Positions 1-56,555 of a stretch of DNA of 64,000 bases are shown here, one piece after another. This DNA is from Corynebacterium glaucum (GTDB lineage Bacteria; Actinomycetota; Actinomycetes; Mycobacteriales; Mycobacteriaceae). The notes under the pieces were generated by a model. That model was given only the letters and a program-made list of their open reading frames with translations, did no database searches and had not been told where the DNA came from. The stretch is taken from positions 2,220,674-2,284,673 of the forward strand of contig NZ_CP019688.1 in assembly GCF_002287505.1 (NCBI RefSeq). Reading direction: 5' to 3'. Position numbers and translations under genes: made by a program. How positions within the stretch are numbered: position 1 is the stretch's first letter; the number at the start of each line of letters is the position of its first letter.

Positions 1-1646
1 TCGTGCCCACCATGTGGCTCTCCCCGCTCGTCCTCACCATTTGCACGGTGGTCTTCGGCATGTTCCCGGCGTGGTTCTCGGGGGCCTTTAACGATTACTT
101 GGGAGTGCGCTTCCCGGCCGTCGATAAGCAAGAGCTCAAGCTGTGGCATGGGGTGACTGTGCCGCTGATCCTGACTGTGGTGATTGTTGCTGCTGGTGCG
201 GTGATGTTCTGGCAGCGTGACCTGGTGCGGCGCGCGCAGCCCGAGCGGCCGGCGCTGGGTGACGCCGACGCGGTGTGGGACAACCTGCTCAGTGCGCTGC
301 GCACGCTTTCGCTGCGCCTGACGGCGTCGACGCAGCGCGGCTCGCTGACCATCAACCTGGCCGTGATTTTTGCGACGCTGATGGTGGTGCAGCTGGCGTA
401 CCTGATCCTCGGAGAGAGCAACAGCATCCGCATGATCCTGTGGGACAGCACGTGGCAGGGCATCGTGGTGATCATCATGGTGGCCATGGCCGTGTTTGCG
501 ACGCTGCAGAACAACCGCCTGTCCGCGCTGGTGATGGTGGGGCTGACCGGCTACAGCCTGGCGATGATCTTCGCGCTGCACGGTGCGCCCGACCTGGCGC
601 TGACGCAGGCGCTGGTGGAAACCATCGTGATGGTGATCTTCATGCTGGTGCTGCGCAAGATGCCCACCGAGGTCGAGCCGCGCACCGACGACAACCGCCT
701 GCGCGCGTGGCTGTCCATCGGTGTGGGGCTGAGCGTGACCATCGTGGGCATGACCGCGATGTCCGCGCGCGTGGCGGAGCCGATTTCGAAGGACATGCCG
801 GACCTGGCGTACGAGATCGGCCACGGCCGCAACACCGTGAACGTGCTGCTGGTGGACCTGCGCGCGGCCGATACGTTCGGCGAGATCCTCGTGCTGGTGA
901 TCGCCGCGACCGGCGTGGCCAGCCTGATCTTCGGCACCGGTAAATTCGGCCGCGCTTCGCGCCGCCCGACGCTGTCTACCACGAAGGCGCGCTGGCTCGC
1001 CGCCGGCGTGGCCACCGAGACGGAGCAAAACCGCTCCATCATGGTCGATGTGGTCACGCGCATTCTGTTCCCGTCAATGATGCTGCTGTCCGTGTACTTC
1101 TTCTTCTCCGGCCACAACGCGCCGGGCGGCGGTTTCGCCGGCGGACTTGTTGCGGCGCTTGCGTTCTCGCTGCGCTACCTCGCGGGCGGGCGCGAGGAGA
1201 TCGAGGAGGCGCTGCCCGTCGATCCGGCGAAGCTGCTGGGTACCGGTGTCATGATCTCCTTCATCGCGGTGGTCACGCCGATGTTCTTCGGGTACCCGCC
1301 GCTGATAAGCAACTACGTCACGCTTGAGCTGCCGCTGATCGGCGAGTTCGATGTGCCGAGCGCGCTGGTCTTCGACGCCGGGGTGTACGTGATCGTCATC
1401 GGCCTGATCATGCACGTGCTCACCTCCATGGGCGCCTACCTCGACCGCGAGGAGGACCTGCGCAAGGAGCGTGCCCGCGACCGCGCCCGCGAGCTGCAGG
1501 AAAAGAACCTGAAGCGGCGCGGCAAGCAGGCAAGGTTACGGCAGGCTCGTCAAGAGGAAAGAGCCGGCTTTGCGACGGCCGGTTCAACCGCAGTCGGCAC
1601 CACCACGCTGGACACCCGCGACGCCACAAAGGAGGGCAACGACTAG
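1..1646 (+). CDS. mrpA: Mrp antiporter subunit A, C-terminal part with fused MnhB domain (5' partial)
   Basis: The reading frame is open from the left edge, so the N-terminal half of the gene lies outside the window. The visible 547 residues hold several membrane helices of the MrpA/NuoL-like family. They are followed by an MnhB domain with the typical stretch FFFSGHNAPGGGFAGG (about residues 365-380). The tail is basic and charged, about 70 residues long. In actinobacteria A and B are commonly one polypeptide, and no separate mrpB follows here, so the fusion explains the missing gene. The stop codon touches the mrpC start (TAG immediately before ATG), which indicates translational coupling. 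The complex exchanges cytoplasmic Na+ for H+ across the membrane and supports pH and salt homeostasis. Confidence 0.93.
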   Translation, partial: VPTMWLSPLVLTICTVVFGMFPAWFSGAFNDYLGVRFPAVDKQELKLWHGVTVPLILTVVIVAAGAVMFWQRDLVRRAQPERPALGDADAVWDNLLSALRTLSLRLTASTQRGSLTINLAVIFATLMVVQLAYLILGESNSIRMILWDSTWQGIVVIIMVAMAVFATLQNNRLSALVMVGLTGYSLAMIFALHGAPDLALTQALVETIVMVIFMLVLRKMPTEVEPRTDDNRLRAWLSIGVGLSVTIVGMTAMSARVAEPISKDMPDLAYEIGHGRNTVNVLLVDLRAADTFGEILVLVIAATGVASLIFGTGKFGRASRRPTLSTTKARWLAAGVATETEQNRSIMVDVVTRILFPSMMLLSVYFFFSGHNAPGGGFAGGLVAALAFSLRYLAGGREEIEEALPVDPAKLLGTGVMISFIAVVTPMFFGYPPLISNYVTLELPLIGEFDVPSALVFDAGVYVIVIGLIMHVLTSMGAYLDREEDLRKERARDRARELQEKNLKRRGKQARLRQARQEERAGFATAGSTAVGTTTLDTRDATKEGND

Positions 1647-2138
1647 ATGGAAGCGAACCTGTTCCTCCTCATCGGCTCCGGCGTGCTGATCACCTGCGGG
1701 GTGTACCTCATGCTGGATCGCGCATTGACCAAGATGATCATGGGCGTGCTGTTGATCGGCAACGGCGGCAACCTGCTGCTGCTGCAGGCAGGCGGCCAGG
1801 CGGGCTCCCCGCCGATCCTTGGGCGTTCCTCCGAGGTGGTCGCGGAGATGGCGGACCCGCTCGCACAGGCGATGATCCTCACCGCGATTGTGATCTCGAT
1901 GGCGCTCGCGGGCTTCATGCTGTCGCTGGCCTACCGCCAGTACCGCTACCGCACGGACGACATCATCGAGCGCGATGAAGAGGACCGCGCAGTGGCCACG
2001 CGCCCGACCACCCCGTCGGCCGCACCGGATCACGACGCTTCCGACGACCCGGAGACCGGGCGCCTGTCGTCTTCGGGCGACGCCTTCGGCCCGCACTTCT
2101 TCGAGAACCCGGTGAGGGAGGCCGACGGTGAACGCTAA
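1647..2138 (+). CDS. mrpC: Mrp-type Na+/H+ antiporter subunit C
   Basis: This 163-residue protein has three hydrophobic segments in the first about 110 residues and the MnhC/NuoK-like motif MGVLLIGNGGNLLLL. The remaining about 50 residues are hydrophilic and make it longer than the usual 110-125 residue subunit C. The ATG directly follows the mrpA stop codon, and the 3' end overlaps mrpD by 11 bases. By family it is an integral membrane subunit of the hetero-oligomeric antiporter, related to the NuoK subunit of complex I. Confidence 0.93.
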   Translation: MEANLFLLIGSGVLITCGVYLMLDRALTKMIMGVLLIGNGGNLLLLQAGGQAGSPPILGRSSEVVAEMADPLAQAMILTAIVISMALAGFMLSLAYRQYRYRTDDIIERDEEDRAVATRPTTPSAAPDHDASDDPETGRLSSSGDAFGPHFFENPVREADGER

Positions 2139-3912
2139 CCTTCAGCAGTTCGCGGACACCGCGCTAGTCGCGATGCCGTACCTCACGGTCATGCCGCTGA
2201 TCCTGCCCGCCGCAGCCGCCGGCCTCATCCTGATCTCCGGGCGCCACCTGCGTACCCAGCGCACCATCGCACTGTTCACGCTCTTCGCGCTCGCCGTCAT
2301 CTCCGCCACGATGATCATCGCCGTGGACATCCACGGCATCCAGACCGTGCAGATGGGCGGTTGGGACGCACCTATCGGCATCACGCTTGTGAGCGATCGC
2401 TTATCGACGATCATGCTGTTCGTCTCATCCATCGTCCTGTTCGCAGTGATGTGGTACGGCATTTCCCAAGGTGTTCGCGACGGCGATGAAGATGACCCCG
2501 TCGCGGTGTTCCTGCCGATCTACATGCTGCTGTGCATGGGCGTGAACCTGTCCTTCCTCGCAGGCGACCTGTTCAACCTTTACGTGGGCTTCGAAGTCTT
2601 CCTCGTCGCCTCCTATGTGCTGCTGACCATGGGTGCCTCCCCGGGCCGTGTGCGCGCCGGCATCGGGTACGTGATGGTTTCCATCGCATCCTCGATGGTG
2701 TTCATCTTCGCCCTTGCGATGATCTACTCCGCGGTAGGCACGGTGAACATGGCGCAGGTAGGCATCCGGATGGAGGAGATCCCGCAGGGCACCCGGGCTG
2801 CGATCTTCGCTACCTTGCTCGTGGCGTTCGGCATCAAGGCGGCGATCTTCCCGCTCGATGCCTGGCTGCCGGACAGCTACCCCACCGCGGCCTCACTGGT
2901 GACGGCCGTCTTTGCGGGCCTGTTGACCAAGGTCGGCGTGTACGCGATCATCCGAATGCGCTCCACCGTGTTCACCGATGGCTCGCTGGATACGCTTTTG
3001 ATGTGGGTTGCGTTGCTCACCATGATCGTCGGCGTGATGGGCGCGCTCGCCCAAAATGACATCAAACGTTTGCTGTCGTTCACCCTGGTCAGCCACATCG
3101 GCTACATGATCTTCGGCATCGCGCTCGGCTCCGTCGCCGGGCTGTCCGGCGCGATTTTCTACGCAGTGCACCACATTTTGGTGCAAACCTCGCTTTTCCT
3201 CGTGGTCGGCCTGGTGGAGCGCCAGGCTGGCTCGGCGCAGCTGCGCCGCTTGGGCTCGCTGATGTACACCGCACCCTTGATCGCGATCCTCTACATCATC
3301 CCGGCGCTAAACCTCGGCGGCATCCCGCCGTTCTCCGGATTCCTGGGCAAGATCATGCTTATCCAGGCAGGTGCGGAGGACGGCTCCTGGCTGGCGTGGG
3401 TACTCATTATCGGCGCCGTGGTCACCTCTCTGCTCACGCTCTACGCAATGATCCTGGTCTGGTCGAAAGCGTTCCTGCGCGACCGCAACGACGCCCCCGA
3501 AGGCGATGTCGCCATGGCGCGACCATCCACCTTGGCGGACCGCTACGCCACGACCACCGTCGCCGAGCGCCAAGACCCGGGCCGCATCCCGGTGGGCATG
3601 ATCATGTCCACCGCGCTGCTGGTGACCACGTCGCTATCCATGACCGTGCTCGCTGGCCCGATCTCGGACATCACCGACCGCGCCGCACAGTCCACCCAGG
3701 ACCAAGCGATCTACCGCGACGCGGTACTCGACGGTGACCTGGACAACCCGACCCGGCGGCCGGAGGAGTTCGCTAAACCGTCATCCGGCGCCGGTGGCTA
3801 CGATTCGCTGGAGCAGCGCAAGACACTCGGTGAGGAGCAGGCACCGCAAACCACCGGTGTGACCACCGAACAGGTGCCGGTCCCAGTCAACGGCGAAGGC
3901 GGTGACCAGTGA
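2128..3912 (+). CDS. mrpD: Mrp-type Na+/H+ antiporter subunit D
   Basis: This is a 594-residue polytopic protein of the proton-translocating NuoL/M/N family. Conserved segments include NLYVGFEVFLVASYVLL and the region around GIKAAIFPLDAWLPDSYPTA, where the lysine and aspartate belong to the ion-translocation path. A hydrophilic acidic tail of about 80 residues follows the last helix and makes it longer than typical MrpD (about 500). A GTG start is chosen because it overlaps mrpC by 11 bases and leads directly into the first helix. The end overlaps mrpE by 4 bases. Confidence 0.94.
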   Translation: MNANLQQFADTALVAMPYLTVMPLILPAAAAGLILISGRHLRTQRTIALFTLFALAVISATMIIAVDIHGIQTVQMGGWDAPIGITLVSDRLSTIMLFVSSIVLFAVMWYGISQGVRDGDEDDPVAVFLPIYMLLCMGVNLSFLAGDLFNLYVGFEVFLVASYVLLTMGASPGRVRAGIGYVMVSIASSMVFIFALAMIYSAVGTVNMAQVGIRMEEIPQGTRAAIFATLLVAFGIKAAIFPLDAWLPDSYPTAASLVTAVFAGLLTKVGVYAIIRMRSTVFTDGSLDTLLMWVALLTMIVGVMGALAQNDIKRLLSFTLVSHIGYMIFGIALGSVAGLSGAIFYAVHHILVQTSLFLVVGLVERQAGSAQLRRLGSLMYTAPLIAILYIIPALNLGGIPPFSGFLGKIMLIQAGAEDGSWLAWVLIIGAVVTSLLTLYAMILVWSKAFLRDRNDAPEGDVAMARPSTLADRYATTTVAERQDPGRIPVGMIMSTALLVTTSLSMTVLAGPISDITDRAAQSTQDQAIYRDAVLDGDLDNPTRRPEEFAKPSSGAGGYDSLEQRKTLGEEQAPQTTGVTTEQVPVPVNGEGGDQ

Positions 3913-4424: not shown

Positions 4425-4427
4425 GCG

Positions 4428-5152: not shown

Positions 5153-6289
5153 TTACCAGGTCAGCTCAGTCATCTCTTGCACAGAGCTCTTGACGACGGC
5201 GCGCCAGTCCCCCGTTTCCTCATAAATCCGGCGCTGCCGCTGGTATCCCGCGCCACGCTCCAGGATGTCCTCAACCAGCCGCAGTTCCTCGACGCAGTCG
5301 AGGTCCTGGGCGATGGGCAAGAGCTCGTCGACAAGCAATGAAAGCTCTTCCGACACCCACCGCTCGTCTGTGGCCCTGCTGGTGATGACGACTGCTTCGA
5401 GGCCGTAGCGCGCGCCGCGCCACTTGTTTTCCGCGACGTGCCACGGCTGGAGGGTGGGGAGCGGCTCGCCGGCTTCGAGCATGCGGTCGTAGTGCACGAC
5501 CAGGCAGTGGGTGAGCGCGACGATGGCGGCGAGTTCGCGCAGGTTGGAGGTAGCGTCGGAGATGCGGACCTCGATCGTGCCCCATTTCGCGGCGGGGCGG
5601 ACGTCGAAGTGCATCGAGCCGGTGTGGTTGATCACGCCGGAGGTTTGTTGGTCGTGCATAAAGCCGACCCACTCGTCCCAGTTTTGGAACTGGTACGGCA
5701 TACCCGCGGTGGGAAGTTGCTGGTAGAGCATGGTGCGGTTGGACGCGTAGCCGGTGTCCAGGCCCTCCCAGCCGGGGCTGGATGCGGAAAGGGCGAGCAG
5801 GTGCGGGTACTTCGTCATGATCGCGTTGATGATCGGCCAGACTTTATCCTCGTGGCTGATGCCGATGTGGCAGTGAATGCCCCACAAGAGCATTTGTTTG
5901 CCCCAGTACTGGGTGCGGTTGATGATCTCCTCGTAGGTGATCTTCGGGCTCAGCGCCTGCTCGCGGAAGTCGGTGAACGGGTGGCCGCCACCGGCCCAAA
6001 GCAGCAGGTTCTGGCGCTTTGCGACGTCTTGGATCCGCGTCAGGTCGCGCTGCAGCGCGTCGACGGCCTCGCGGGTGTTCGCGCACACGGGGGTCACCAG
6101 CTCGATGGTGTTCTGGAGGAACTCGCGCTCGAGGTGCGTGTCGGGATGCTTTGCTACGACTTCGTCGATCACGTCTGCCGCCCTGGGCACGAGGTCGAGC
6201 GTTTCCGGGTCAAGGACGCCGACCTCCCACTCCACGCCGAGGGTGTTGTCGGTAGAGCGGGCGAAATCGCGGAACGGATCCATTGCCAT
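5153..6289 (-). CDS. GCS2-family carboxylate-amine ligase / glutamate-cysteine ligase-like
   Basis: A protein of about 378 residues from the preferred start [10 protein letters not shown]; in-frame extension to 6334 is possible but weakly supported. Family landmarks are [12 protein letters not shown] near the N-terminus, [22 protein letters not shown] and [22 protein letters not shown], which carry metal and substrate-binding residues of the GCS2/YbdK family. These enzymes form gamma-glutamylcysteine or related amides using ATP. The physiological role in mycothiol-producing actinobacteria is not settled. The neighbour order matches M. tuberculosis Rv0433 beside Rv0431/Rv0430. Confidence 0.85.
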
Positions 6290-6370: not shown

Positions 6371-7468
6371 CTACCTGGTGAGGACGACGGTGATCGCGTT
6401 CCGGTTTCCGGCCGCCGGCTCCGGCAGCCCGGTCGCGCCCTGCGGGAGATCGTTGTTCGCGCGCGGGACGCCACCGACTTGCTGCGCGATGTCTGCCGCA
6501 ACCTGCTCCGCACCCGGAACCTGCGGGTCGAAGAACACGGTGGTCTCCGGGAACACACCGTATTGCTGCTCCGGCATGTTCATCGTCGCTGGGTCGGGCG
6601 AGTTGTTGGCCACGTTGAACTGCGAGTCCAGACGCGCTGCGGTATCGGAAGCCGCATTCGGCACTCCGGAGTTGTTGAACACGAACACCTCAGCGTCGGC
6701 TGCGGTGAGCGCCGCACCGTCCGCTGCCGGGGCAGCGGGAGCCGGTGCCGGCGCGTTCGGGTCGTCTGCGCGCGGTGCGTTCGGATCTTGCGGGTTCGCG
6801 CCGTCAGCCGCGGTCGCGTTCGGATCCTGCGCGCCGGTCTGGCCAGCCCCCGCACCAGCATCCGCACCCGAATTTGAACCCGCCCCCGGCGCGCCGGTGT
6901 TGGCAACCGTCTCAGTCGCCGCGGTCGTGGCCTCGGTGCTCGCCGGCGCCGCGTCGTTGTCCGCACCGCGGTTCTGCGTCATCGCGTAAATGCCCCACAG
7001 CAGCAGCAACGCCGCCACCGCGATCAGGATCATCGCAAGCCCGCGCTTGGGCACCCCATCAGCAGCAACGGCGCTCGAGCCAGTAGAGCTTTTCGCTTGT
7101 CGACGCCCCTTTCCACGCACTTCTCCATCCCCACGCTTACCTCGCGTCGCAGCTGCGGTGCCCGCGGCACCAGCTGCCGCCGCACCAGCGGCAGCGGGGA
7201 TAACGGAGGTGTTGTCGTCGTCAGCGTATTCACCGTAACCATCGGCGTACTCGTCGTATTCGCCGTAGTCTTCGTACTCCTCGTCGGCGTCGCGACGGTG
7301 GGCGCCACGGTAGTCGTCGACATCTTCGAACTCGACGTAGTCGGCCGCGTCATCGAACTGATCGGCTTCATCGGCGTCGACCGGGTAGGCGTCGTGCGGC
7401 TCGAGGCGGCCATCATCCCCGTGGTCACCGCGGTCGCCGGGGTTGCCGAAGTTGTACTTAGTAGTCAC
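6371..7468 (-). CDS. VirR-like envelope protein with LytR_C domain
   Basis: A 365-residue single-pass membrane protein. Residues 1-90 are extremely rich in Asp, Glu and Tyr (repeats such as EYDEYADGYGEYADD), followed by an Ala-rich and a basic stretch. The helix is at about 143-163 (GLAMILIAVAALLLLWGIYAM). An Ala/Pro/Asp/Gly-rich external linker runs to about 255 and is followed by a LytR_C domain (AEVFVFNNSGVPNAASDTA onward). Position and architecture match M. tuberculosis Rv0431 (VirR), which affects envelope permeability and vesicle release. The acidic cytoplasmic N-terminus is unusually long. The function here is inferred from homology and synteny only. Confidence 0.82.
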   Translation of the reverse strand: MTTKYNFGNPGDRGDHGDDGRLEPHDAYPVDADEADQFDDAADYVEFEDVDDYRGAHRRDADEEYEDYGEYDEYADGYGEYADDDNTSVIPAAAGAAAAGAAGTAAATRGKRGDGEVRGKGRRQAKSSTGSSAVAADGVPKRGLAMILIAVAALLLLWGIYAMTQNRGADNDAAPASTEATTAATETVANTGAPGAGSNSGADAGAGAGQTGAQDPNATAADGANPQDPNAPRADDPNAPAPAPAAPAADGAALTAADAEVFVFNNSGVPNAASDTAARLDSQFNVANNSPDPATMNMPEQQYGVFPETTVFFDPQVPGAEQVAADIAQQVGGVPRANNDLPQGATGLPEPAAGNRNAITVVLTR

Positions 7469-7503: not shown

Positions 7504-7728
7504 TTACGACGCGCCGTTGAACGAGGCGTCGCGAAGCCTTTGCAAACGGCGAACCAACTGGGGGCTTGACTCGAGCGCATCGGGTGAGTCGAGCAGGGCG
7601 TTGAGCCGCTGGTAGTAGCGCACGGGGGTGATCCCAAGTTCCCGCTGAATCGCTTCCTCCCGCGCGCCGAGCGAACGCGGAGCGTGGGCGGCGAAGTCGA
7701 GGACGGCGATATCGGTCTGGGAAAGCAT
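7504..7728 (-). CDS. DUF3263 family protein (Rv0430-like)
   Basis: A small protein of about 74 residues beginning [19 protein letters not shown]. An upstream ATG extension would run into the def promoter and is not favoured. The sequence matches the short helical DUF3263 family, which is conserved beside def and virR in mycobacteria. The pattern [25 protein letters not shown] looks like a winged-helix or sigma-like helical pair, so DNA binding is plausible but not shown. It is divergent from def with only 16 bases between the start codons. It probably shares a transcript with the VirR-like gene downstream. Confidence 0.8.
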
Positions 7729-8330: not shown

Positions 8331-9317
8331 ATGTCGCGGATTTTCCGCTCCGACCCGGTTTCTGTCGGCGACCGCGTCGTCGTGCGTCGCGTGCGAGGCG
8401 AGCTGGCCAGTGACGTCATCGGCATCGTCGAATCCGTCTCCCCGCTTCTCGTGCGCCGCGGCGACGAGCTGGTCGACATCGGCGAATACCACGTGATGAA
8501 GCGCCTCTCGCCCCGCACCGTCCGCAACTCCGACATCCGCGCGATCGAAGCCGCCACCGCCCGCGCGTTCCCAGGTCAAGAGCAATTGCTTATCGACGGA
8601 TGGCTGCTCCGCGCCGGCGCCGAAATCGCCGAACGCTCCAATAGCGCGACCCCGATCGGCCACTCCGCAGGATTCGGTGTTGTGCCGCTCGACGCGATCG
8701 AGGCGTTTTACCGCGAGCACGACATGCCGGTGCAGCTGCTGGTACCGGAGCGCATCGGCAAGCCGGCGCTGCGACTGATCGAAGCCGCCCCCGAGCGCTG
8801 GGAGCTCGGCGAGGAGATCGTGGTGATGAGCGCGGAGCTGGGTGAGATGGGCGCAGGCGAAAGCGGCGGCGCAGGCGGCGGCGCGCCAGACCCCGACGTC
8901 CGCGTCGACGTCCGCGTCGACACAGCACCCGACGCGGACTGGCTGGCCATGTACCACTACCGCGGCCAGGCGCTGCCCGAGGGCGCGGTGCGGGACCTCG
9001 CGCAACGCATCGACGGCCAGATCGGCTTCGCGCGCCTCACGCTCGACGGCCGCACCATCGCAGTCACGCGTGCGACCATCACCGCCTCCGACGACGGCCG
9101 CAACTGGCTCGGCTACTCGGCGGTGGAGGTCGCGCCCGAGTACCGCCGCCAAGGATTGGGCACGCGTCTGGGCAAAGCTGTGCTGGCCTGGGGCACGCAG
9201 CAGGGCGCGGACAACGCGTACCTGCAGGTGCGCGCCTCGAACGCCGCCGGCATCGGGCTGTACGAGAAGCTCGGCTTCGTCGAACACCATCGCCACCGCT
9301 ACGCACGCTTGCGCTAA
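8331..9317 (+). CDS. GNAT-family N-acetyltransferase (Rv0428c-like)
   Basis: A 328-residue protein starting MSRIFRSDPVSVGDRVVVRRV. The N-terminal about 60 residues form a small beta-rich region, and the C-terminal GNAT fold has the acetyl-CoA loop VAPEYRRQGLGTRLGKAV (R/Q-x-x-G-x-G/A pattern) and a final ASNAAGIGLYEKLGF. A Gly/Ala-rich linker (GESGGAGGGAPD) separates the halves. It lies between def and xthA as in M. tuberculosis. The substrate is unknown; acetylation of a newly exposed N-terminus is only a guess from the def neighbourhood. Confidence 0.85.
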   Translation: MSRIFRSDPVSVGDRVVVRRVRGELASDVIGIVESVSPLLVRRGDELVDIGEYHVMKRLSPRTVRNSDIRAIEAATARAFPGQEQLLIDGWLLRAGAEIAERSNSATPIGHSAGFGVVPLDAIEAFYREHDMPVQLLVPERIGKPALRLIEAAPERWELGEEIVVMSAELGEMGAGESGGAGGGAPDPDVRVDVRVDTAPDADWLAMYHYRGQALPEGAVRDLAQRIDGQIGFARLTLDGRTIAVTRATITASDDGRNWLGYSAVEVAPEYRRQGLGTRLGKAVLAWGTQQGADNAYLQVRASNAAGIGLYEKLGFVEHHRHRYARLR

Positions 9318-9342: not shown

Positions 9343-10134
9343 ATGCGAGTTGCCACTTGGAACGTCAACTCGGTGCGCACGCGCGCCGAGCGCATCGCCG
9401 CGTTCCTGGAGCGCACTGACATCGACGTGCTGTGCATGCAGGAAACCAAGGTGGCCGACGCGAAATTCCCCTACGCCACTTTCGAAGCCGCCGGCTACGA
9501 GGTCGCGCATGTGGGAACCAACCAGTGGAACGGCGTCGCCATTGCATCGCGGGTGGGGCTTGAGGATGTGCGTGAAGAGTTCGCGCGCCAGCCGTCGTTT
9601 AGCAAAAGCGGCGACCCGGTCCGCGAGGCGCGCGCGGTGGGTGCGACCTGCGGCGGCGTGAACATTTGGAGCCTGTACGTGCCCAATGGCCGGGAGATCG
9701 GCGACCCACATTACGACTACAAACTACAGTTCTTGTACAGCCTGTGCGGTGTGGTCGAGGCGTCGACAAGCAGGCTCCTGTGCGGCGACTTCAACATTGC
9801 CCCGCGCGATGAGGATGTTTGGGACATCGGCTGGTTCGAGGGCAAAACGCACGTGACCGAACCGGAGCGCGCGGCGTGGCAAATGCTGCTCGAGGCCGGG
9901 CTGACCGAGGTCACGCACGATGACCGCTTCAGCTTCTGGGACTACAAATCCATGCGGTTCCAGAAGAATCAGGGCATGCTCATCGACTTTCTGCTGGCCA
10001 CAGAGCCAATGCACACAAAGCTTATCGACGCCTGGGTGGACGTGGAAGAACGCCAAGGCAAAGGCGCCTCCGACCACGCGCCGGTGATCGCCGATTTTGA
10101 CACGCGGACGCTGGAGCTCGACCAAGTCCGATGA
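9343..10134 (+). CDS. xthA: Exodeoxyribonuclease III / AP endonuclease
   Basis: A 263-residue EEP-superfamily nuclease starting MRVATWNVNSVRTR. The catalytic set is visible: WNVNS, the metal-binding Glu in MQETKVADAKFP, LYVPNGREIGDP, the GDFNIAPRDEDVWD motif and the terminal SDHAPVIADF. It repairs abasic sites and trims 3' blocks in DNA. Its end overlaps the cardiolipin synthase start by 4 bases, which links a DNA repair gene to a lipid gene in one likely operon. Confidence 0.95.
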   Translation: MRVATWNVNSVRTRAERIAAFLERTDIDVLCMQETKVADAKFPYATFEAAGYEVAHVGTNQWNGVAIASRVGLEDVREEFARQPSFSKSGDPVREARAVGATCGGVNIWSLYVPNGREIGDPHYDYKLQFLYSLCGVVEASTSRLLCGDFNIAPRDEDVWDIGWFEGKTHVTEPERAAWQMLLEAGLTEVTHDDRFSFWDYKSMRFQKNQGMLIDFLLATEPMHTKLIDAWVDVEERQGKGASDHAPVIADFDTRTLELDQVR

Positions 10135-26190: not shown

Positions 26191-26212
26191 CATGCGGTCT
26201 CAAGGGAGATTG

Positions 26213-34517: not shown

Positions 34518-34697
34518 TAACAATCGTAAGCAAATTCCAAGGTTTTCTGAACCCCCAGCTAGGGCCATTGCTTAACGACGCCCACGCGAACCCCACTTCT
34601 CAAATCCCCTCCCCAAATCACCCCCGATCAGTGACCGATCAACAAGCACTCCGGCATCCCGGCGCAGCTTTCCACTTGCTGCGGCGCCCAAAACGAA

Positions 34698-40002: not shown

Positions 40003-40013
40003 CGTCGATAAGC
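40003..40013 (-). repeat. Intergenic copy of the 11-mer GCTTATCGACG
   Basis: This is one of two copies clearly outside coding sequence. The other 14 exact copies lie in genes, in several frames and on both strands. Confidence 0.9.
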
Positions 40014-46522: not shown

Positions 46523-47048
46523 GGTCGGAGAGTCCGAGGAGGTAGCGGTAGTCCAGGCCGGCGTCGGCAAGCACTTGATTAGCCCCGGTCGCACGGTCGA
46601 CGACGGTGGCGACCGCAACCACCTCGGCCCCTTCCTCGCGGCACGCCTCCACCGCGGTCAGCGGCGAGTTGCCGGTGGTCGTTGTGTCCTCCACCACCAG
46701 CACCCGCTTGCCCACAATCGACGGCCCCTCGATCCGGCGCTGCATCCCGTGCTTCTTCGCTTCCTTACGCACCACGAAGGCATCGATCGGGCGACCGTCC
46801 GCGTGCATCACGGCGGTAGCGACCGGGTCCGCACCCAGGGTCAGCCCGCCAACGGCATCGAACTCGAGGTCCTCAGTGAGCTCGCGGATCAGCGCACCGA
46901 TCAGCGGACTCGCCTCGTGGTGCAAGGTGGCACGACGCAGGTCAACGTAGTAATCGGCTTCACGTCCGGACGACAGCGTGACCTTGCCGTGCACCACTGC
47001 CAGCTCTTTGACCAGCTCAGCGAGGCGGGCTTTTTTGGCATCATTCAT
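46509..47048 (-). CDS. pyrE: Orotate phosphoribosyltransferase
   Basis: A 179-residue enzyme (start MNDAKKARLAELVKEL) that makes orotidine 5'-phosphate from orotate and PRPP. The PRPP-binding motif is VLVVEDTTTTGNSPLTAV, and VDLRRATLHHEASPLIG is typical of the N-terminal half. It overlaps the upstream membrane-protein gene by 8 bases. Confidence 0.95.
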   Translation of the reverse strand: MNDAKKARLAELVKELAVVHGKVTLSSGREADYYVDLRRATLHHEASPLIGALIRELTEDLEFDAVGGLTLGADPVATAVMHADGRPIDAFVVRKEAKKHGMQRRIEGPSIVGKRVLVVEDTTTTGNSPLTAVEACREEGAEVVAVATVVDRATGANQVLADAGLDYRYLLGLSDLGLE

Positions 47049-47997
47049 CGGTGGGCTCCTTCGGGCTCGGCATCTCCGTTGCATTCTCCGTGCTTCCGAA
47101 GATAGACGGCGGCGCCATCGTGCGGCGCGCCCGGGTCAGATCGCTCGGATTGTGCGCGGTCTCTGCGATGCCATCGGCAATCGCGCTCACCTGGTCACCA
47201 CCAAGCGCGTGCTCCTGCGCCGGCCCGCGCACCGCGCCGGTCGTGCGCGTCGGCAGCGCAAGCGGTTCCTCGGGACGCTGAACCTTCGGCGTGTTCAGCG
47301 GCTCCTCGACCTCGGCCTCAACCGGAGCCACTACCAGCTTCGGCTCGGGCTCCGGCGCGTCCGGAATGTCGCGGGTGGGAAACGGCACCGCCAGCGGCTG
47401 TGGGTTCGCGGGCGGGAGGGTCCGCGCGGCGTCGGCGAGCCTGGCCAGCGGCTCAAACGCGGCCTCCCACTCGCCCAGCTGCACGCCCTCGCCCACCTCC
47501 GCCAGCACCCACTCGCTCTCAAACCACACCGCAACCACAGTTGCGGGCAGGAGGTCGAGCGCATCGCGCACTCGCTTATCGACGAAGCGTTGCGCCACCC
47601 CAGCGTCCGTCCCGAACACAGCGAAATCCCCGGCCTTCGCCACCTCAACGAGGTCTTCCGACGACGCCGCGTCGAAACCGTCGCGGCGCATGTCCACGAC
47701 CACGTCGCTCACCGCGCCGGTGCTCATGGCGACCACCGTGGTCGGGCCAACATCGGCAACAACCGTCTCGTGTCCACCCCAGTTGCCAGTGGCCACGTTG
47801 GTTATGGCCGACCCGGTGGCCGCGGCGCCGCGTTGCCATTCGTCGACAAGCGATGTGTCCTGCTTGACGTAGCTGAAACCATTCGCCTCGGCCCAGGATT
47901 TGCGCCCGCGGTTAGGTGCCGACGAGTCGGACACCCACAGCCACACGCCGGCGATGAGCAGGACAATCGCCAGACAGATAATTAAGTATGCCATCAA
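47041..47997 (-). CDS. Conserved membrane-anchored protein (Rv0383c-like)
   Basis: A 318-residue protein with one N-terminal helix (AYLIICLAIVLLIAGVWLWV). A mixed alpha/beta domain of about 160 residues follows, then a Pro/Glu-rich tail. No enzymatic motif was recognised. Its place between pyrE and clpB matches Rv0383c in M. tuberculosis, described only as a conserved secreted or membrane protein. Anchoring with the domain outside the membrane is likely from the helix position. Confidence 0.75.
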   Translation of the reverse strand: MMAYLIICLAIVLLIAGVWLWVSDSSAPNRGRKSWAEANGFSYVKQDTSLVDEWQRGAAATGSAITNVATGNWGGHETVVADVGPTTVVAMSTGAVSDVVVDMRRDGFDAASSEDLVEVAKAGDFAVFGTDAGVAQRFVDKRVRDALDLLPATVVAVWFESEWVLAEVGEGVQLGEWEAAFEPLARLADAARTLPPANPQPLAVPFPTRDIPDAPEPEPKLVVAPVEAEVEEPLNTPKVQRPEEPLALPTRTTGAVRGPAQEHALGGDQVSAIADGIAETAHNPSDLTRARRTMAPPSIFGSTENATEMPSPKEPTDE

Positions 47998-48058: not shown

Positions 48059-48913
48059 CTACATGTTGGTTGCGAGCGGGTTCTTCGGGTCTGCCGACCA
48101 CTGCGACCAGCCGCCCACGAAGTGCGTGAGCACCGGCAGGCCCGCATGCGCCATCGCGGCGAGCATCAGGGAGGAGTGGTTACCGGAACCGGAGTAGACA
48201 ATCGCGTCCTGCGGGTCGGTCTCAGGGGTGATGCCGAGGCCGGCGAAGATCTCGCGGATCGTGCCCGGGTCCTTCACCTTCACCTGATCGTGCTCGCCGT
48301 GCTTGATAAACAGCTCATCCACGGGCAGGTTCTGCGCGCTCGGGATGTGCCCGGCGCGCAGGTCGAAGACTTCGCGGCGGCCGTCGAAACGGTTCTTGGA
48401 GCGGGCGTCGATAAGCGTGCCCTCGAAAGCCTTGACTTCCTCGATGCTGGCGACGGGCATGTGCCCCTCTGACACCTCGACCTCGCGCGGCACGACGACA
48501 TTGCCGGGGCCGGCGACCGTGTCGAAGCCGTCGCCGTCCCAATCGGCGAAGCCGCCGTCCAGGATGAACACGTCTTCAATGCCAGCCCAGCGCAGAATGA
48601 ACCATGCGCGAGAGGCGAACAAGCCGTTGCCGCGGTCGTAGATGTAGGTCGGGCGGCCCGGCTCGATGCCCCACTCCTTGGTTGCCTTCGCCACAACGTC
48701 AATGCTGGGCATTGGGTTGCGGCCTTCGTAGCGGCCCGGCATGCCAGCGAGCTGCGACGCGGGATCGCAAAACACCGCCGTCGGGATGTGCTCGGATTGG
48801 AACTTCGACCAAGCTTTGCCATCGGTGCGCTCCCACAGGGCGGCGATGATGGTGTGCTTCTGGCCAGTCTTGATGCGTTCGTTCAGGGCTTCAGCGGAGA
48901 CAAAGACGCTCAT
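48059..48913 (-). CDS. Thiosulfate sulfurtransferase-like protein with Ser in place of catalytic Cys
   Basis: A 284-residue two-domain rhodanese-like protein starting MSVFVSAEALNERI. The domain landmarks are clear: VFILDGGFADWDGDG, GTLIDARSKNRFDG, GHIPSAQNLPVDELF and FVGGWSQWSADPKNP. The active-site loop of the second domain reads IVYSGSGNHSS where active enzymes have a Cys (usually YCGSG). Only one Cys occurs in the whole protein, in the first domain (AVFCDPASQ). It may be inactive or work differently. Confidence 0.85.
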   Translation of the reverse strand: MSVFVSAEALNERIKTGQKHTIIAALWERTDGKAWSKFQSEHIPTAVFCDPASQLAGMPGRYEGRNPMPSIDVVAKATKEWGIEPGRPTYIYDRGNGLFASRAWFILRWAGIEDVFILDGGFADWDGDGFDTVAGPGNVVVPREVEVSEGHMPVASIEEVKAFEGTLIDARSKNRFDGRREVFDLRAGHIPSAQNLPVDELFIKHGEHDQVKVKDPGTIREIFAGLGITPETDPQDAIVYSGSGNHSSLMLAAMAHAGLPVLTHFVGGWSQWSADPKNPLATNM

Positions 48914-49368: not shown

Positions 49369-49379
49369 GCTTATCGACG
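49369..49379 (+). repeat. Intergenic copy of the 11-mer GCTTATCGACG
   Basis: This copy is in the 63-base gap between the DUF4265-like and adh genes. It extends to TTGCTTATCGACGGC, which is also found at 56415 and nearly at 8586. Confidence 0.9.
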
Positions 49380-50555: not shown

Positions 50556-53105
50556 TTACCTCGCGTTGACGTCGAGCATCTCGCCGCCGTCGGCTACGTC
50601 GACGTGGACCGCGTCGCCGTCGCGGATGTCACCTGCGAGCAGCTTCTTTGCCAGCCGGTCGCCGATCGCTTGCTGGATCAAGCGGCGCAGCGGGCGTGCA
50701 CCGTACGCCGGGTCATACCCGCGGTCGGCCAGCCAGGACTTGGCGGCATCCGAGACGTCGAGAGTGAGCCGTCGTGCAGCGAGCCGCTCTGCCAGACCCT
50801 CGAGCTGGATCTCCACGATGCCCACCAGCTGATCCTGGGTGAGCGGCTCGAAGACCACCACGTCGTCAAGACGGTTGATGAACTCCGGCTTGAAGTGGTG
50901 CTTCACCGCCTCCATGATCTGCTCGCGGTTGCCGCCCGCGCCCAGGTTGGACGTCAGGATGATCACCGTGTTGCGGAAATCGACGGTGCGCCCCTGGCCG
51001 TCGGTAAGCCGGCCCTCGTCGAGCACCTGAAGCAGCACGTCGAAGACGTCCGGGTGAGCCTTCTCCACTTCGTCGAAGAGCACGAGCGAGTACGGGCGAC
51101 GGCGCACCGCCTCGGTGAGCTGGCCGCCAGCGTCGTAGCCGACATATCCCGGAGGGGCACCGACCAGGCGGGCGACGGAGTGCTTCTCGCCGTACTCGCT
51201 CATGTCGATGCGGACCATGGCGGACTCATCGTCGAAGAGGAATTCCGCGAGCGCCTTCGCCAGCTCCGTCTTACCCACGCCGGTCGGGCCGAGGAAGAGG
51301 AACGAACCGATCGGACGGTTGGGGTCCGCCACGCCGGCGCGCGAACGGCGCACCGCATCGGAGACTGCAACGACTGCCTCTTTCTGGCCGACGACGCGGC
51401 CCGCCAGCACCGACTCCATGTTGAGCAGCTTCTCGGTCTCGCCCTGCATCATCTTGCCCGCCGGGATGCCGGTCCACGAGGACACAACCTCCGCGATGAC
51501 ATCGGGCGTGACTTCCTCCTCCAGCATGGTCTTGGTGCTGGCCTGGCTTTCGGCAGCTGCGACCTCCGCCTCGAGCTCCGGGATGCGCCCGTAGCGCAGC
51601 TCGGAGACCTTGGCGTAGTCGCCTTCGCGCTCCGCGATCTCGGACTCGTTGCGCAGGCGTTCGAGTTCCTCCTTCGCGGACTGGACCTTGTTCACCTCGC
51701 CCTTCTCGTTCTCCCAGCGCGCCTTCATCTCGCCGAGCTTTTCACGCTGATCGGCGAGTTCCTGGCGCAGGTCGGACAGGCGCTGCTGCGAAGCCGCGTC
51801 GTTCTCCTTCGCCAAAGCGATCTCTTCGATCTCAAGGCGACGGACCACGCGCTCAAGCTCGTCGATCTCCTGCGGGGAGGAGTCGATCTGCATGCGCAGG
51901 CGCGAGCCGGCCTCGTCGACCAAGTCGATCGCCTTGTCCGGCAGGAAGCGGTTAGTGATGTAGCGGTTGGACAGCTCGGCGGCAGCGACCAGGGCAGAGT
52001 CCTGGATGCGCACACCGTGGTGCACCTCGTAGCGCTCCTTCAAACCACGCAGGATGCCGATCGTGTCCTCAACGGTCGGCTCACCCACGTAGACCTGCTG
52101 GAAGCGGCGCTCCAGCGCGGCGTCCTTCTCGATGTACTGGCGGTATTCATCCAGCGTCGTCGCACCGACGAGGCGCAGCTCGCCGCGGGCCAGCATCGGC
52201 TTGATCATGTTGCCCGCGTCCATCGCTCCCTCGCCAGACGCGCCAGCGCCGACGATGGTGTGCAGCTCATCGATAAAGGTGATGATTTCGCCGTCCGAGG
52301 ACTTGATCTCATCCAGCACCGCCTTGAGGCGCTCCTCGAACTCGCCGCGGAACTTCGCGCCTGCGACCATCGAGCCGAGGTCGAGCGAGATCAGCGTCTT
52401 GCCCTTCAAGCTCTCCGGCACGTCGCCGGCGACGATGCGGCGGGCGAGGCCCTCGACTACTGCGGTCTTACCGACGCCAGGCTCACCGATCAGCACCGGG
52501 TTGTTCTTCGTGCGGCGGGAAAGCACCTGCACAACGCGGCGGATCTCGGCATCACGGCCAATCACCGGGTCGATCTTGCCCTCACGCGCGCGTGCAGTCA
52601 GGTCAGTGGAGTACTTCTCCAGTGCCTGGAACTGCTGCTCCGGGTCCTCAGAAGTGACCTTCTTCGAGCCGCGCACGGACGGGAAGGCACCCTTCAGCAC
52701 CTCGTAAGTCGCACCGCGCTTCTTCAGCAGCTCGGCCGCTTCATCGCCACCCTTCGCGATGGCAGCGAGCAGCACCTCGGTGGACACGAACTCGTCACCG
52801 AGCTCACCGGCCAGCTCCTGCGCGGCGTTGATCGCGTTGAGCGCATCACGGTTGAAATTCGGGTTCGCTAAATTCTGGCCCTCAGCCTTGGGGTATCCGT
52901 CCGTGATCTGCGCCGCCTCGCGGGCGACGGTGTCCGGATCGACGCCCGTGGCCTTCAACACGGGAGCGGCAATGCCCTCGTCCTGCGTCAAAATCGCCTC
53001 AAGCAGGTGCGCTGGGCGGATGTCCGGGTTGCCAGCTGCCGACGCTTTTTGCAGCGCCTGCCGAATCGCCTCCTGCGTCTTCGTGGTGGGGTTAAACGTT
53101 CCCAT
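50556..53105 (-). CDS. clpB: ATP-dependent chaperone ClpB
   Basis: An 849-residue AAA+ disaggregase. It has the N-terminal Clp_N repeats, the first ATPase domain with [13 protein letters not shown] (near residue 205), the coiled-coil M-domain (about 410-530, Glu/Arg/Lys-rich) and the second ATPase domain with [13 protein letters not shown] (near 605). The length is normal. AAGGAG precedes the ATG. Together with DnaK, DnaJ and GrpE it solubilises aggregated proteins. The promoter resembles SigH-controlled heat-shock promoters. Confidence 0.97.
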
Positions 53106-53177: not shown

Positions 53178-53287
53178 TATCAATCCCAAAATTTCTGGAA
53201 AAAGTTGCGCGGGGGCCGCTAAGGTTCGCCCTGGGCTTGCGCGACCAAACCACGACAAGATGCGCGACCACGGCGACCCACAGCCAC

Positions 53288-53374: not shown

Positions 53375-53418
53375 GGCGGTGCTGCGGGTGGGTGCGGCAG
53401 GCGGGAGCGAGAAAGGCG

Positions 53419-54077
53419 TCAAACAGGCCGTCGAGAAGCGTCCGGCTCCCGCGACTGGCGCGAAACCGGAACCCAACGCAGCACATACGCGACGACGACC
53501 ACCCCGACCGCGATCGTGAAGGCGGCCCACCCGAAACCGGTAGTGAAACCGGCGATGACCGCGATCGGCGCGAGGATGGTCATGCCGATCTCAAACGGCG
53601 CGAAACCGACGTAGGCCACGCCGCACTCATTCAGCGTGCCGGATTTCAGCTTCGGATCGACCATCTTCAGCAGCGCGATACCGGTGGCCACGGCGGCGGT
53701 CGCCCAGCCCCAGCCGAAGATGCCGCGCTCGAGCCACTTCTCGCCGAAGAACGTCGGCGCCGCCCACAGCATCCATACGACACAGAACAAGGTGCCCAGC
53801 ACGAAGATGAGTACGAGCGCCTGCCAGTAGCCGGCAAGCGCGGCGGGGACGATGGAGGCGATGCCGAACGCGATCATGTAGTCGGTCGCCGCGCCCGCGA
53901 TCGAGCCGACGGTGTCGCGGTCGAGGTAGTTCGGGCGGCGCAGCATGCGTCCAATCAGCCCGATCACAAAGGCCATTTCTGCAGGATGAGCAGCCGGTTT
54001 CGCAACACGTTGCCGACAATCAGCAGGATAGACAGCCAGCCAATGTCGGTGAGCAGGGTATATGGCGTGAATTCCAC
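53419..54077 (-). pseudogene. Decayed GltS-type sodium:glutamate symporter
   Basis: The 5' end is normal: GTG start after AAAGGTGGG, then EFTPYTLLTDIGWLSILLIV, but this frame stops after 37 residues (at 53964). A second frame overlaps it by 13 bases, from MAFVIGLIGRM at 53976 to 53419 (185 residues). It contains only the C-terminal part of a GltS-like symporter (YMIAFGIASIVPAALAGYW; GTLNECGVAYVGFAPFEIG). About 200 residues of the middle of a usual 400-450 residue protein are missing, and the frame is shifted at the join. Translational coupling of two fragments is conceivable but loss of function is more likely. Confidence 0.78.
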
Positions 54078-54181: not shown

Positions 54182-55291
54182 ATGAGTATCCCTGCCGCAC
54201 TCATACAGAGACCGGGCCTGGTGCGGGCCGCGATGTATAGCCGTTTCATCGACGCATACGGGCAGCAGGGAGCCGCAATCTTGCCGGAAGGCACGCGGGA
54301 AGTGCCACAAACACTTGTCGACGCCGCCTTTTGGATCTTGTCCCATTCCCCCAACGCCAAACTACGCCCCGGTGTGATCAAACGTGTGCGGGCATGGGCG
54401 CTGGATCTGCGCCGCGTGGGCTTTCCGTCCGCGGAATTCCCGGCGGTCGCGAACATGCTTGCCGACGCCTCCGCCGCCGATTCCCAGTCCCGCGAGATCC
54501 TCGTCGCCGTCGCCGAAACGATGCGCACCGCGGTCGAAGAAGCTGACTTAGCCGGGATCCCAGCGGCATCCGCCGCGCAGATCACTGAGGTCGCTCCGGC
54601 AGGTGGGACGGACAGCGGGGTGACCATCGTCCAATTGGAAGCCGGCATCCAGGTGGATTACGCGCCCGGCCAGGTCTTGCCAGTCATGCAGGTGGGTCGG
54701 CAGGGGGTGTGGCGTGGTTTGGCGCCGGCGCTGCCGTCGAATAGCTTTGGCCAACTCGAGTTCCATGTGGACGGTGAGATTGAACCCGAGGCCGGGACGT
54801 ACCTGACGCTGGGTGCCGCGCGCGGCCCGAGCCCGGTGCTGGATTGTGAACAGGCGATGATCGCCGCGGTGGGCACCGGCTGGGCGGCGGCCAAAGCCAT
54901 GCTTTTCGGCATATTGGAGCGTGAGACCCGCCCCGATGTCCACCTGCTGATCGGTGCGGACACGACTGATGAGCTCTACGATCTGCGCACCATCGGCGCG
55001 CTGAACCAGGCACATGACTGGCTGACCGTCACCTGCGCCGTGACAGACGGCGAGGACGCCGGCCCCGCAAAGGAGGCGGGGCTGAACCACGTGTGGGCAC
55101 CGCTGTCTGCCTTCCTCGCCGGTGCGGGCACGTGGTGGGGCCGCGAGGTGGTGCTGTGCGGGACGAAGGCGCGTACCGATGAGCTGGTGCGTTCGCTGCA
55201 CGCGGCGGGTGCCGAGAGGGCGCAGAACGGGATTACCGTCGTTGCGCACGACGCGCAGTTCGACTGGGCTACCCCGCCCGACGAGGGCTAG
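54182..55291 (+). CDS. Flavohemoprotein-reductase-like protein (Rv0385-like position)
   Basis: A 369-residue protein. Residues about 1-140 are helical and globin-like in pattern (LVRAAMYSRFIDAYGQQ), and about 145-369 resemble a ferredoxin-NADP reductase/flavohemoprotein module (VDYAPGQVLPVMQVG; MIAAVGTGWAAAKAMLFGIL; HLLIGADTTDELYDL). The usual FAD motif RxYS is not visible; the equivalent region reads VWRGLAPALPSN. The globin haem ligand cannot be placed with confidence. M. tuberculosis carries a comparable gene (Rv0385) next to clpB. It is a diverged homologue and activity is uncertain. Confidence 0.6.
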   Translation: MSIPAALIQRPGLVRAAMYSRFIDAYGQQGAAILPEGTREVPQTLVDAAFWILSHSPNAKLRPGVIKRVRAWALDLRRVGFPSAEFPAVANMLADASAADSQSREILVAVAETMRTAVEEADLAGIPAASAAQITEVAPAGGTDSGVTIVQLEAGIQVDYAPGQVLPVMQVGRQGVWRGLAPALPSNSFGQLEFHVDGEIEPEAGTYLTLGAARGPSPVLDCEQAMIAAVGTGWAAAKAMLFGILERETRPDVHLLIGADTTDELYDLRTIGALNQAHDWLTVTCAVTDGEDAGPAKEAGLNHVWAPLSAFLAGAGTWWGREVVLCGTKARTDELVRSLHAAGAERAQNGITVVAHDAQFDWATPPDEG

Positions 55292-55329: not shown

Positions 55330-56184
55330 CTACCGCATCACCGTGTTTTCGGTGATCGCGACCACCGGCAGCGCCTTGCGGGCCGCGGCGACCTCACTCA
55401 GATCGATGTCCACGATGAGCGTCTCTGGCGCGTAGCCCGCTTCAGCGATGCGCTCGCCCTGCGGGTTGACCACGGCTGAGTGGCCAATGCCGGTCGGGCC
55501 GGACTCCTCCCCCGCTTTCTCCTCCCAATCGGGCCGGGCTTGTCCGGTCGCTGCGATGAACACGCCCGCATCCAATGCACGCGCCGCGTTTAGCGCCCGC
55601 CACTGCTCGAGCTTGCCCGGCCCATCAGCCCAGCTCGTGGGCACCACGATGACCTCAGCGCCGCGTCGCGCAAGCTCCTTGAACTGCTCCGGGAAGCGGA
55701 TGTCAAAGCAGATCGCCATGCCGACCACCACACTCTCGCCGTCCGCTTCGTGCACGAACGTGACCAGCTCCTCACCGGTTCTCACCGTGTCAGATTCGCG
55801 GTAATCAAACGCGTCGTACGCGTGAATCTTGTCGTAGCCCGTGTGCGTCCCGCCGCCGGTCACCAGCGCGGTGTTGCGCACCCGGTTCACCGTCTTTCGC
55901 TCACCGTTGCTCTCGAGCACGTTGGTGTCGGCGGGGCGGAACATGCCCGCGACCACGGTTACCCCGAGCTCGTCGGCAAGCGTGCGCACCGCCGTCGAGA
56001 ACTCCCCGTCGAGTTCTTCCGCCTGCGTGTCTAGTCTGCCCTGGTCAAAGGCCTGACTTGTGGCCTCTGGCAGCACGATCAGGCTGGCACCCGCGGCTGC
56101 TGCGTCGCGGATCAGCGGCTCGATGCGCGCAAAATTCTCGCTCTTATCGGCGCCGGTGATCACTTGCAATAAGGCAATCCTCAT
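55330..56184 (-). CDS. Nitrilase-family amidohydrolase
   Basis: A 284-residue C-N hydrolase with the Glu-Lys-Cys triad in VLPEATSQAF, GYDKIHAYDAFDYRES and VGMAICFDIRFPE. The pattern is closest to deaminated-glutathione amidase/omega-amidase members (Nit1/Nit2-like). These remove amide groups from damaged metabolites. It is divergent from the small gene at 56277. Confidence 0.88.
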   Translation of the reverse strand: MRIALLQVITGADKSENFARIEPLIRDAAAAGASLIVLPEATSQAFDQGRLDTQAEELDGEFSTAVRTLADELGVTVVAGMFRPADTNVLESNGERKTVNRVRNTALVTGGGTHTGYDKIHAYDAFDYRESDTVRTGEELVTFVHEADGESVVVGMAICFDIRFPEQFKELARRGAEVIVVPTSWADGPGKLEQWRALNAARALDAGVFIAATGQARPDWEEKAGEESGPTGIGHSAVVNPQGERIAEAGYAPETLIVDIDLSEVAAARKALPVVAITENTVMR

Positions 56185-56276
56185 GTGGATAACTCTAATG
56201 CGCGTGGCAGCGGGTTATCCACAGATCGTTCACTCGCTCTTGATTTTGTTTATTTCGCTTTGGCATGGTTGTCGGC

Positions 56277-56555
56277 ATGAACTTTCTCGCCCTTTCCGAC
56301 ACCACTGCCCCCACCGCCCGCGCACACCTCCCCGACACCTCCACCCTCCCTACAGCACAGCTTTCCCCATCGCTCGCAGCCACAGCCCTCGCCGCAGTGC
56401 AGCACAAGGAGCATTTGCTTATCGACGGCACACTGCGCCGCCTAAGCAACCACCTCGACTCCATCGCCACTTTTGCCCAGACAGCCGCCGACATCGACGC
56501 TGCTCTTGACACTGCACTCGACACTGCCCTCGCGAGGTCGCTGCGCAATGGCTAG
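56277..56555 (+). CDS. Small helical protein paired with the DUF1023 hydrolase
   Basis: A 92-residue protein starting MNFLALSDTTAPTARAH, of unknown family. It is Ala-rich and helical, with LRRLSNHLDSIATFAQTAADID suggesting an amphipathic segment. It overlaps the next start codon by 8 bases, so the two are translationally coupled. The size and composition recall partners of ESX-like secreted proteins, but no WXG motif is present. Confidence 0.55.
   Translation: MNFLALSDTTAPTARAHLPDTSTLPTAQLSPSLAATALAAVQHKEHLLIDGTLRRLSNHLDSIATFAQTAADIDAALDTALDTALARSLRNG

Follow-up and report, generated by a model that had tools for sequence, protein, structure and literature searches.

Uptake sequences plainly illustrate how a bacterium can distinguish its own DNA from foreign DNA. 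To our knowledge, systems that label DNA for uptake are known chiefly from two Gram-negative families, and the only experimentally demonstrated receptor, ComP, is part of a Gram-negative type IV pilus. The sources cited here by accession are represented by excerpts, to which the statements resting on them are limited. In the Neisseriaceae, the dialects of the DNA uptake sequence (DUS) have a common invariant core (PMC3630211). In the Pasteurellaceae, the uptake signal sequence (USS) consists of a core and AT-rich tracts over 32 nt (PMC12616744). Chi sites, another kind of dispersed word, are short and polar (PMC8022716). Here we describe an 11-letter word, GCTTATCGACG, found in a stretch of 64,000 nucleotides of the Corynebacterium glaucum chromosome (contig NZ_CP019688.1, positions 2,220,674 to 2,284,673), hereafter the window. 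The signal centred on this word probably serves as a DNA uptake sequence, one that has dialects within a mycolic-acid-containing Gram-positive genus.

Like the DUS, the Corynebacterium word is short, non-palindromic and hugely over-represented, with clade dialects around an invariant core, and it is absent from some members of its genus as the DUS is from some Neisseriaceae (PMC3630211). It differs in that Corynebacterium is Gram-positive, in that the receptor is putative, with no ComP identified, in its longer core with flanks, in its letters, and in an uptake bias that is presumed. With the USS it shares a fixed core with weaker flanks over about 30 bp, as well as an abrupt drop from exact to one-mismatch copies (PMC12616744, PMC1939737). 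In contrast to the USS, the main T-rich flank in Corynebacterium lies upstream of the core, with a TT at +16/+17 downstream, and the sites do not form inverted pairs acting as terminators.

Machinery of the same kind, namely Tad pilus genes together with comEA/comEC, serves transformation in the actinobacterium Micrococcus luteus, which requires Flp/Tad pili and ComEC; the combination of Tad and com genes is described as common among actinobacteria (PMC4322843). The parallel is incomplete, as the main text of PMC4322843 does not mention the term 'uptake sequence' and competence in Corynebacterium is presumed. A motif survey that included three Corynebacterium genomes gives, in its excerpted part, only CRISPR-related motifs for them (PMC5217627), and no report of such a signal in the genus appeared among the matches listed in a search of the open-access literature, with subscription papers and preprints outside that search.

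Abundance of the word and its relation to coding

The earlier note on the window had listed 16 exact copies of GCTTATCGACG and seven of a G variant, GCTTGTCGACG. All 16 and all seven were recovered with the same positions and strands, where shuffled sequence is expected to give 0.07 and 0.15 copies, respectively. The word also withstands the counts over the whole genome and against a Markov background that the note had proposed as a check. The contig containing the window (2,518,659 bases) carries 499 exact copies, 239 on one strand and 260 on the other, compared with a single copy of the word read backwards. Further counts were made on a sample of 462,673 bases, consisting of the window and twenty 20-kb stretches at even spacing (one of these, L098, was trimmed by 1,327 bp for overlap with the window; the genome's own word list was built from the window and L081-L097, leaving out L098-L100). 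The sample holds 108 exact copies, whereas an order-4 model predicts 1.31. The copies are scattered along the chromosome.

Genes were called with a home-made codon-score script, giving 425 genes in the sample; of the 108 exact copies, 87 fall inside genes, 20 are intergenic and 1 sits on a gene edge. In the window, the calls agree with the earlier description of copies in several frames, on both strands and in two gaps, the intergenic copies being those at 40003 and 49369. Such a word could in principle be a by-product of protein sequence or codon use, through peptides such as LID, VDK and SIS. In effect, the LID[G/A] frame reported as common in the window is also common in the sample, where it accounts for 48 of the 87 in-gene copies. 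Nevertheless, synonymous shuffling of the called genes leaves a mean of 3.5 copies and a maximum of 7 (40 shuffles) against the 87 observed, and the G variant falls from 37 to 3.6. Of the remaining in-gene copies, 5 lie in the other two same-strand frames and 34 on the opposite strand; these 34 and the 20 intergenic copies, in both of which the flanks are conserved too, likewise speak against a coding origin. The probability of a coding by-product is thus negligible. The over-representation of GCTTATCGACG arises at the DNA level and not from protein coding, which bears out the proposal that selection acts on the DNA.

Shape of the site

Beyond what had been noted, GCTTATCGACG is only the core of a longer site, and other Corynebacterium clades spell the word differently. 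In the sample, all 33 one-mismatch words together amount to 123 copies compared with the 108 exact ones, a sharp drop from exact to mismatched. Core columns 1-2 and 7-11 are intolerant, with 3 copies in total for their 21 one-mismatch words. Columns 3 and 4 have 10 and 11 mismatch copies, while column 5 (A to G 40, to T 19, to C 14) and column 6 (T to A 16, to C 5, to G 5) are tolerant.

Around the core, a T-rich tract at -3 to -1, a C at +12, TT at +16/+17 and a C at +21 are conserved. This conservation is present in the 20 intergenic copies and in 35 copies overlapping an opposite-strand gene, whereas 20 control LID sites written with other codons show a different flank pattern and lack the conserved flanks of GCTTATCGACG. 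A 42-column model of the extended site finds 341 sites in the sample versus 16 in the reversed control at the same score. Extrapolated to the genome, this gives about 1,856 sites, or about 1,770 after control subtraction (roughly 1,800). Thus, GCTTATCGACG forms the almost unvarying core of an approximately 35-bp signal that is spread over the whole chromosome.

Sites in the window

The window holds 50 of the 341 sample sites found by the 42-column model, whose scores are given below.

Exact copies of GCTTATCGACG:
119..129, minus strand, score 22.9
2399..2409, plus strand, score 18.7
8588..8598, plus strand, score 27.2; of 9 aligned relatives, 3 identical, 2 with ungapped substitutions, 4 gapped
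10020..10030, plus strand, score 26.9; word kept by 0 of 10 aligned relatives
10529..10539, plus strand, score 24.9; word identical in 4 of 7 aligned relatives
14512..14522, minus strand, score 29.8; word identical in 4 of 14 aligned relatives
23964..23974, plus strand, score 25.4
31258..31268, minus strand, score 20.1
40003..40013, minus strand, intergenic, score 28.3
41944..41954, minus strand, score 27.0
42425..42435, minus strand, score 29.9
44692..44702, plus strand, score 23.6
47574..47584, plus strand, score 26.1
48406..48416, minus strand, score 23.1
49369..49379, plus strand, intergenic, score 34.2, the highest extended site in the window
56417..56427, plus strand, within a short called gene, score 29.3

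Copies of the G variant GCTTGTCGACG:
5326..5336, minus strand, score 25.2
7095..7105, plus strand, score 29.7
9761..9771, minus strand, score 19.2; kept by 0 of 12 aligned relatives
16373..16383, plus strand, score 23.0
33857..33867, minus strand, score 23.6
47841..47851, minus strand, score 21.3
61604..61614, plus strand, score 21.8

Other sites:
7527..7537, minus strand, weaker site GCTTCGCGACG, score 16.8
9593..9603, minus strand, weaker site GCTAAACGACG, score 14.6
13386..13396, plus strand, GCTTGACGACG, score 22.5
15224..15234, plus strand, GCTTGACGACG, score 21.0
16178..16188, plus strand, GCGTACCGACG, score 18.2
17605..17615, plus strand, weaker site GCTTTCCAACG, score 14.5
18543..18553, minus strand, weaker site GCGTAACGACG, score 15.3
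19564..19574, minus strand, GCTCATCGACG, score 18.4
19612..19622, plus strand, GCTTGACGACG, score 27.3
21422..21432, minus strand, GCTTCTCGACG, score 16.3
22664..22674, plus strand, GCTTAACGACG, score 21.0
26212..26222, plus strand, GCTAAGCGACG, at a gene end, score 19.4
26666..26676, plus strand, GCTAGACGACG, score 17.2
30234..30244, minus strand, GCTTTCCGACG, score 22.2
34570..34580, plus strand, GCTTAACGACG, intergenic, score 28.4
39120..39130, plus strand, GCTTAGCGACG, score 25.0
45210..45220, minus strand, GCTTTACGACG, score 16.8
46562..46572, minus strand, GCTTGCCGACG, at a gene edge, score 19.4
50999..51009, minus strand, GCTTACCGACG, score 16.3
53429..53439, minus strand, GCTTCTCGACG, score 26.1
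54457..54467, plus strand, GCTTGCCGACG, score 20.6
54735..54745, minus strand, weaker site GCTATTCGACG, score 14.5
55971..55981, minus strand, GCTTGCCGACG, score 17.5
57287..57297, minus strand, GCTTGCCGACG, score 17.6
57587..57597, minus strand, GCTTGGCGACG, score 18.4
59843..59853, minus strand, weaker site GCTTCACGACG, score 14.6
61894..61904, minus strand, GCTGCTCGACG, score 16.9

Placement along the chromosome

In the sample, GC skew is predominantly positive as far as 1.32 Mb and, beyond 1.45 Mb, predominantly negative, with exceptions, so that the first 1.00 Mb would be one replication arm, assuming that the contig starts near the origin. In this first megabase, 95 copies have one orientation and 100 the other (p=0.77), and neither there nor in the overall counts is strand polarity with replication present. 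A polar signal of the FtsK type (FtsK-orienting polar sequence, KOPS), against which the lack of strand bias in the window had already been held, is rejected for want of a terminus-directed skew. Even spacing was tested on the 195 copies of the first megabase and not found; the distances fit random scatter (coefficient of variation 1.03; Kolmogorov-Smirnov p=0.79 against an exponential). A bias toward convergent gaps was likewise not found (5 of 36).

Random spacing over the whole genome and on both strands is what could be expected of a binding site for an abundant chromosome-organising or other intracellular DNA-binding protein, and the long asymmetric footprint and the lack of preference for intergenic DNA would also suit such a protein. 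Nevertheless, it seems unusual for the site of a global chromosomal protein to drift in spelling among the clades of one genus, and some 1,800 near-exact cores, mostly within genes, seem to need a copying drive. We regard this explanation as unlikely, if the foremost of the alternatives.

Site density climbs with the GC content of 4-kb windows (Spearman 0.50, 115 windows): the two windows below 56% GC have no site, and above 65% GC the density reaches about 1 per kb. According to our own arithmetic, base composition alone would slightly favour AT-richer windows, the opposite of the observed trend. Four large gaps were retrieved. The emptiest, of about 22 kb near 700-722 kb, has 0 sites, and the other three have 0.46 to 0.68 sites per kb against an average of 0.74. 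Ten proteins of the 22-kb island were scanned, giving a TrwC relaxase, two IS240-type transposases, one MFS transporter, two proteins with domains of unknown function and four without a Pfam match. It is on the GC trend and this one mobile island that the scarcity of sites in putatively acquired DNA is based.

Scarcity in foreign DNA is also a property of Chi, as are dense occurrence and distribution over the whole genome, and the word could therefore be a Chi-type recombination signal, read by the AdnAB helicase-nuclease during the resection of DNA ends. The genome encodes two adjoining large PDDEXK_1 proteins, at 588 and 592 kb, which by size and adjacency are candidates for this enzyme and which we take to be AdnAB. 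However, such nucleases occur in 18 of 18 genomes, with or without the word. The density of exact copies, about 1 per 5 kb, is Chi-like (PMC8022716), but an 11-nt core with flanks exceeds the 8 nt of Chi, the copies lack strand polarity, and the dialects lie inside one genus. A Chi-type role thus appears unlikely, and we rank it below that of an intracellular binding protein.

Gain, loss and dialects among relatives

Eight window sites near pknG were aligned to relatives. At 8588, 10529 and 14512, some relatives (66-80% identity) keep the word and others show one to several substitutions in place; some rows are gapped, mostly those of distant relatives. No relative aligned at 7095, 16373 and 23964. 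Where the alignment is clear, which is at three informative sites, copies look gained and lost by substitution and not by insertion. The weak conservation of flanks on both sides of the core might also recall the remnants of a dispersed mobile repeat, such as a repetitive extragenic palindrome (REP)-like element or a miniature transposon. By contrast, the core is nearly invariant while the flanks vary, the three sites show substitutions among relatives instead of the loss of an insert, most sites lie inside genes, and none occurs in the one mobile island examined. This origin is therefore very improbable.

Outside the genus, exact GCTTATCGACG is found in 0 to 5 copies (24 genomes from 15 other families of the order); within it, in 0 to 679, and 16 of the 36 relatives sampled reach 100 copies or more. 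The counts for named genomes, which cover 38 of 80 loci (the first 38 except L024 and L027, which are short, together with L039 and L045), include 679 in Marseille-P3884, 478 in gottingense, 407 in tuscaniense, 359 in HMSC074A01, 353 in 74A, 289 in HMSC05H05, 285 in riegelii, 270 in lubricantis, 128 in aurimucosum, 5 and 4 in two jeikeium, and 0 in glyciniphilum.

When 19 other Corynebacterium genomes were sampled at 80-150 kb each, word statistics revealed the word or a dialect in 11, one of which (riegelii) spells it as the window does. Examples of the dialects are GCTTGCCGATG, GCTTCTCGACG and TTATTGACGCC, and the spellings by genome are as follows.

KPL1814: GCTTGCCGATGCC
J010B-136: GCTTGTCGATG plus A and T variants
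TAE3-ERU12: GCTTGCCGACG, GCTTTCCGACG
S30M: GCTTGCCGACG, GCTTGTCGACG
hylobatis: GCTTCTCGACGCC
NML98-0116 and NML140438: (T)TATCGACGCC
suicordis: TTTTCGACGCC
ACRPH (jeikeium group): TTATTGACGCC
parakroppenstedtii: CTTATCGACG, TTGCCGACG

Most dialects have a common skeleton, GCTT-N-Y-Y-GA-Y-G-CC. In all eleven genomes, in-gene words outnumber each of 20 synonymous shuffles, with a narrower margin for nine-letter words and for hylobatis (13 versus a mean of 1.6 and a maximum of 5), small numbers for TTTTCGACGCC in suicordis (3 in genes, 6 between), and poor gene calls in NML98 and NML140438 (53% and 58% coding). Of the eight remaining genomes, six are taken as lacking the word (uropygiale being doubtful), while dentalis and S11A are not classed as lacking it. 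The word lists from the samples of mendelii and dentalis are dominated by words from CRISPR-like repeats, for example CCCCGCTCACG. We also considered the DnaA box, since TTATCCACA presumably resembles TTATCGACG; this candidate was rejected as the spelling drifts between clades.

A degenerate pattern, CTTNYCGAYGNC, has at least 200 copies in 151 of 201 genomes of the genus and fewer in 50 (table counted by eye), and its reversed control never exceeds 66. This control is lenient, in that genomes without the exact word give about 100-140 matches (G003: 137, exact 0), and the pattern misses the jeikeium and suicordis spellings. The present genome has 808 matches, and the highest of the 201 (G238), with 1,639, about twice as many.

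The window carries pknG, and in a tree of 39 homologous rows its PknG falls within Corynebacterium, beside that of C. riegelii. Several rows are long-branched. The signal is present in both deep halves of the genus, and the dialects agree with the tree. No word was found in glyciniphilum and SN15, from one clade (where avicola, feces_ps and RUG12810 are little sampled), or in mendelii, meridianum and TAE3-ERU16, from another. The simplest reading of this distribution would be ancestral presence followed by at least two losses.

Competence machinery and proposed interpretation as an uptake sequence

The genome encodes Ssd, TadA, TadB, TadC, a small protein in the Flp position (DUF4244) and two TadE-like minor pilins, along with ComEA, ComEC and DprA. 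All 38 genomes surveyed, 37 of them Corynebacterium and one a Nocardia, have ComEC; T2SSE/TadA was found in 36 of 37, and ComEA in all 30 read among the 38 with ComEC. Tad pilins were surveyed in 20 genomes plus this one, and DprA and AdnAB-type nucleases in 18. For TadE, parakroppenstedtii, suicordis (E 0.036) and ACRPH (0.068) lack a convincing match, and the one in mendelii and TAE3-ERU12 is doubtful; the stretches retrieved for glyciniphilum and SN15 revealed no Ssd. Across the genus, most of the Rv3654c-like, TadF-type minor pilins have an AGP-type end and a cysteine pair in common.

The over-representation, intolerant core, weak flanks, missing polarity, dialects and scarcity of sites in foreign DNA match known uptake sequences (PMC3630211, PMC1939737, PMC12616744), which makes a DNA uptake sequence the most likely function. 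The resemblance to uptake sequences or Chi-like sites suggested earlier is hence supported, and between the two we infer the uptake type to be favoured because of the long flanks, the clade dialects and the absence of polarity. In the proposed mechanism, the cells would be naturally competent, and the word on free DNA would be bound by a predicted receptor within the Tad-pilus/ComEA/ComEC apparatus, so that uptake would prefer DNA from the same or a close species. Recombination of the DNA thus taken up may drive and maintain the estimated 1,800 sites, and the dialects would partly restrict the exchange of genes across clades. Whether this amounts to a genus-wide, species-specific recognition code, read in Tad-pilus transformation across the mycolic-acid outer membrane, with dialects setting the exchange partners, an origin independent of that in Neisseriaceae and Pasteurellaceae and an unfamiliar class of receptor, is in our judgement an evenly balanced question.

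Several observations weigh against an uptake function. Both competence and uptake bias in Corynebacterium are things that we infer. The Tad cluster, ComEA, ComEC, DprA and AdnAB-type nucleases also occur in sampled signal-free species, and possessing them is thus no explanation for the distribution of the signal among species; within the surveys above, none of ComEC, ComEA, TadA, the Tad pilins, DprA and the nucleases separates signal-bearing from signal-free species. DNA-binding minor pilins are described as electropositive (PMC12616744), whereas the Tad pilins of this genome are acidic once the first 20 residues are removed (isoelectric points of 4.9 for Flp, 4.4 for TadE and 4.9 for TadF), and their charge pointed to no receptor. 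Intergenic enrichment is absent, both for all sample sites (37 of 341, or 10.8%, versus 13.0% non-coding DNA) and for exact copies (20 of 108, p=0.11), and hairpin pairing was not found among the 341 sites (11 pairs closer than 100 bp, of which 4 are inverted); consequently, there are no USS-style terminators. The GC trend and the site-free island are also compatible with Chi-type sites. Finally, the sites at 9761 and 10020 are kept by none of their 12 and 10 aligned relatives, most rows being gapped, and 8 of the 19 genomes sampled over 80-150 kb have no clear word.

If the signal is indeed an uptake sequence, natural competence would be predicted in Corynebacterium, a topic on which we found little literature, in a genus that includes skin commensals, opportunists and amino-acid producers. 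It would also offer a handle for gene transfer work in the harmless species, and would allow ideas on the origin and evolution of uptake specificity to be tested in a separate lineage whose pilus and envelope are of another kind.

Other elements in the window

A second dispersed element, an inverted arrangement of CAAACCCGGATA of about 90-110 bp, occurs at 11753-11860, 20305-20393 and 53287-53375, in all three cases between called genes. In addition, three large proteins with DUF5979 and Big_8 domains are encoded at 26213-29071, 32190-34358 and 34749-37160. Their genes contain long tandem arrays, and the repeat letters of these arrays match the most frequent 12-mers of the window.

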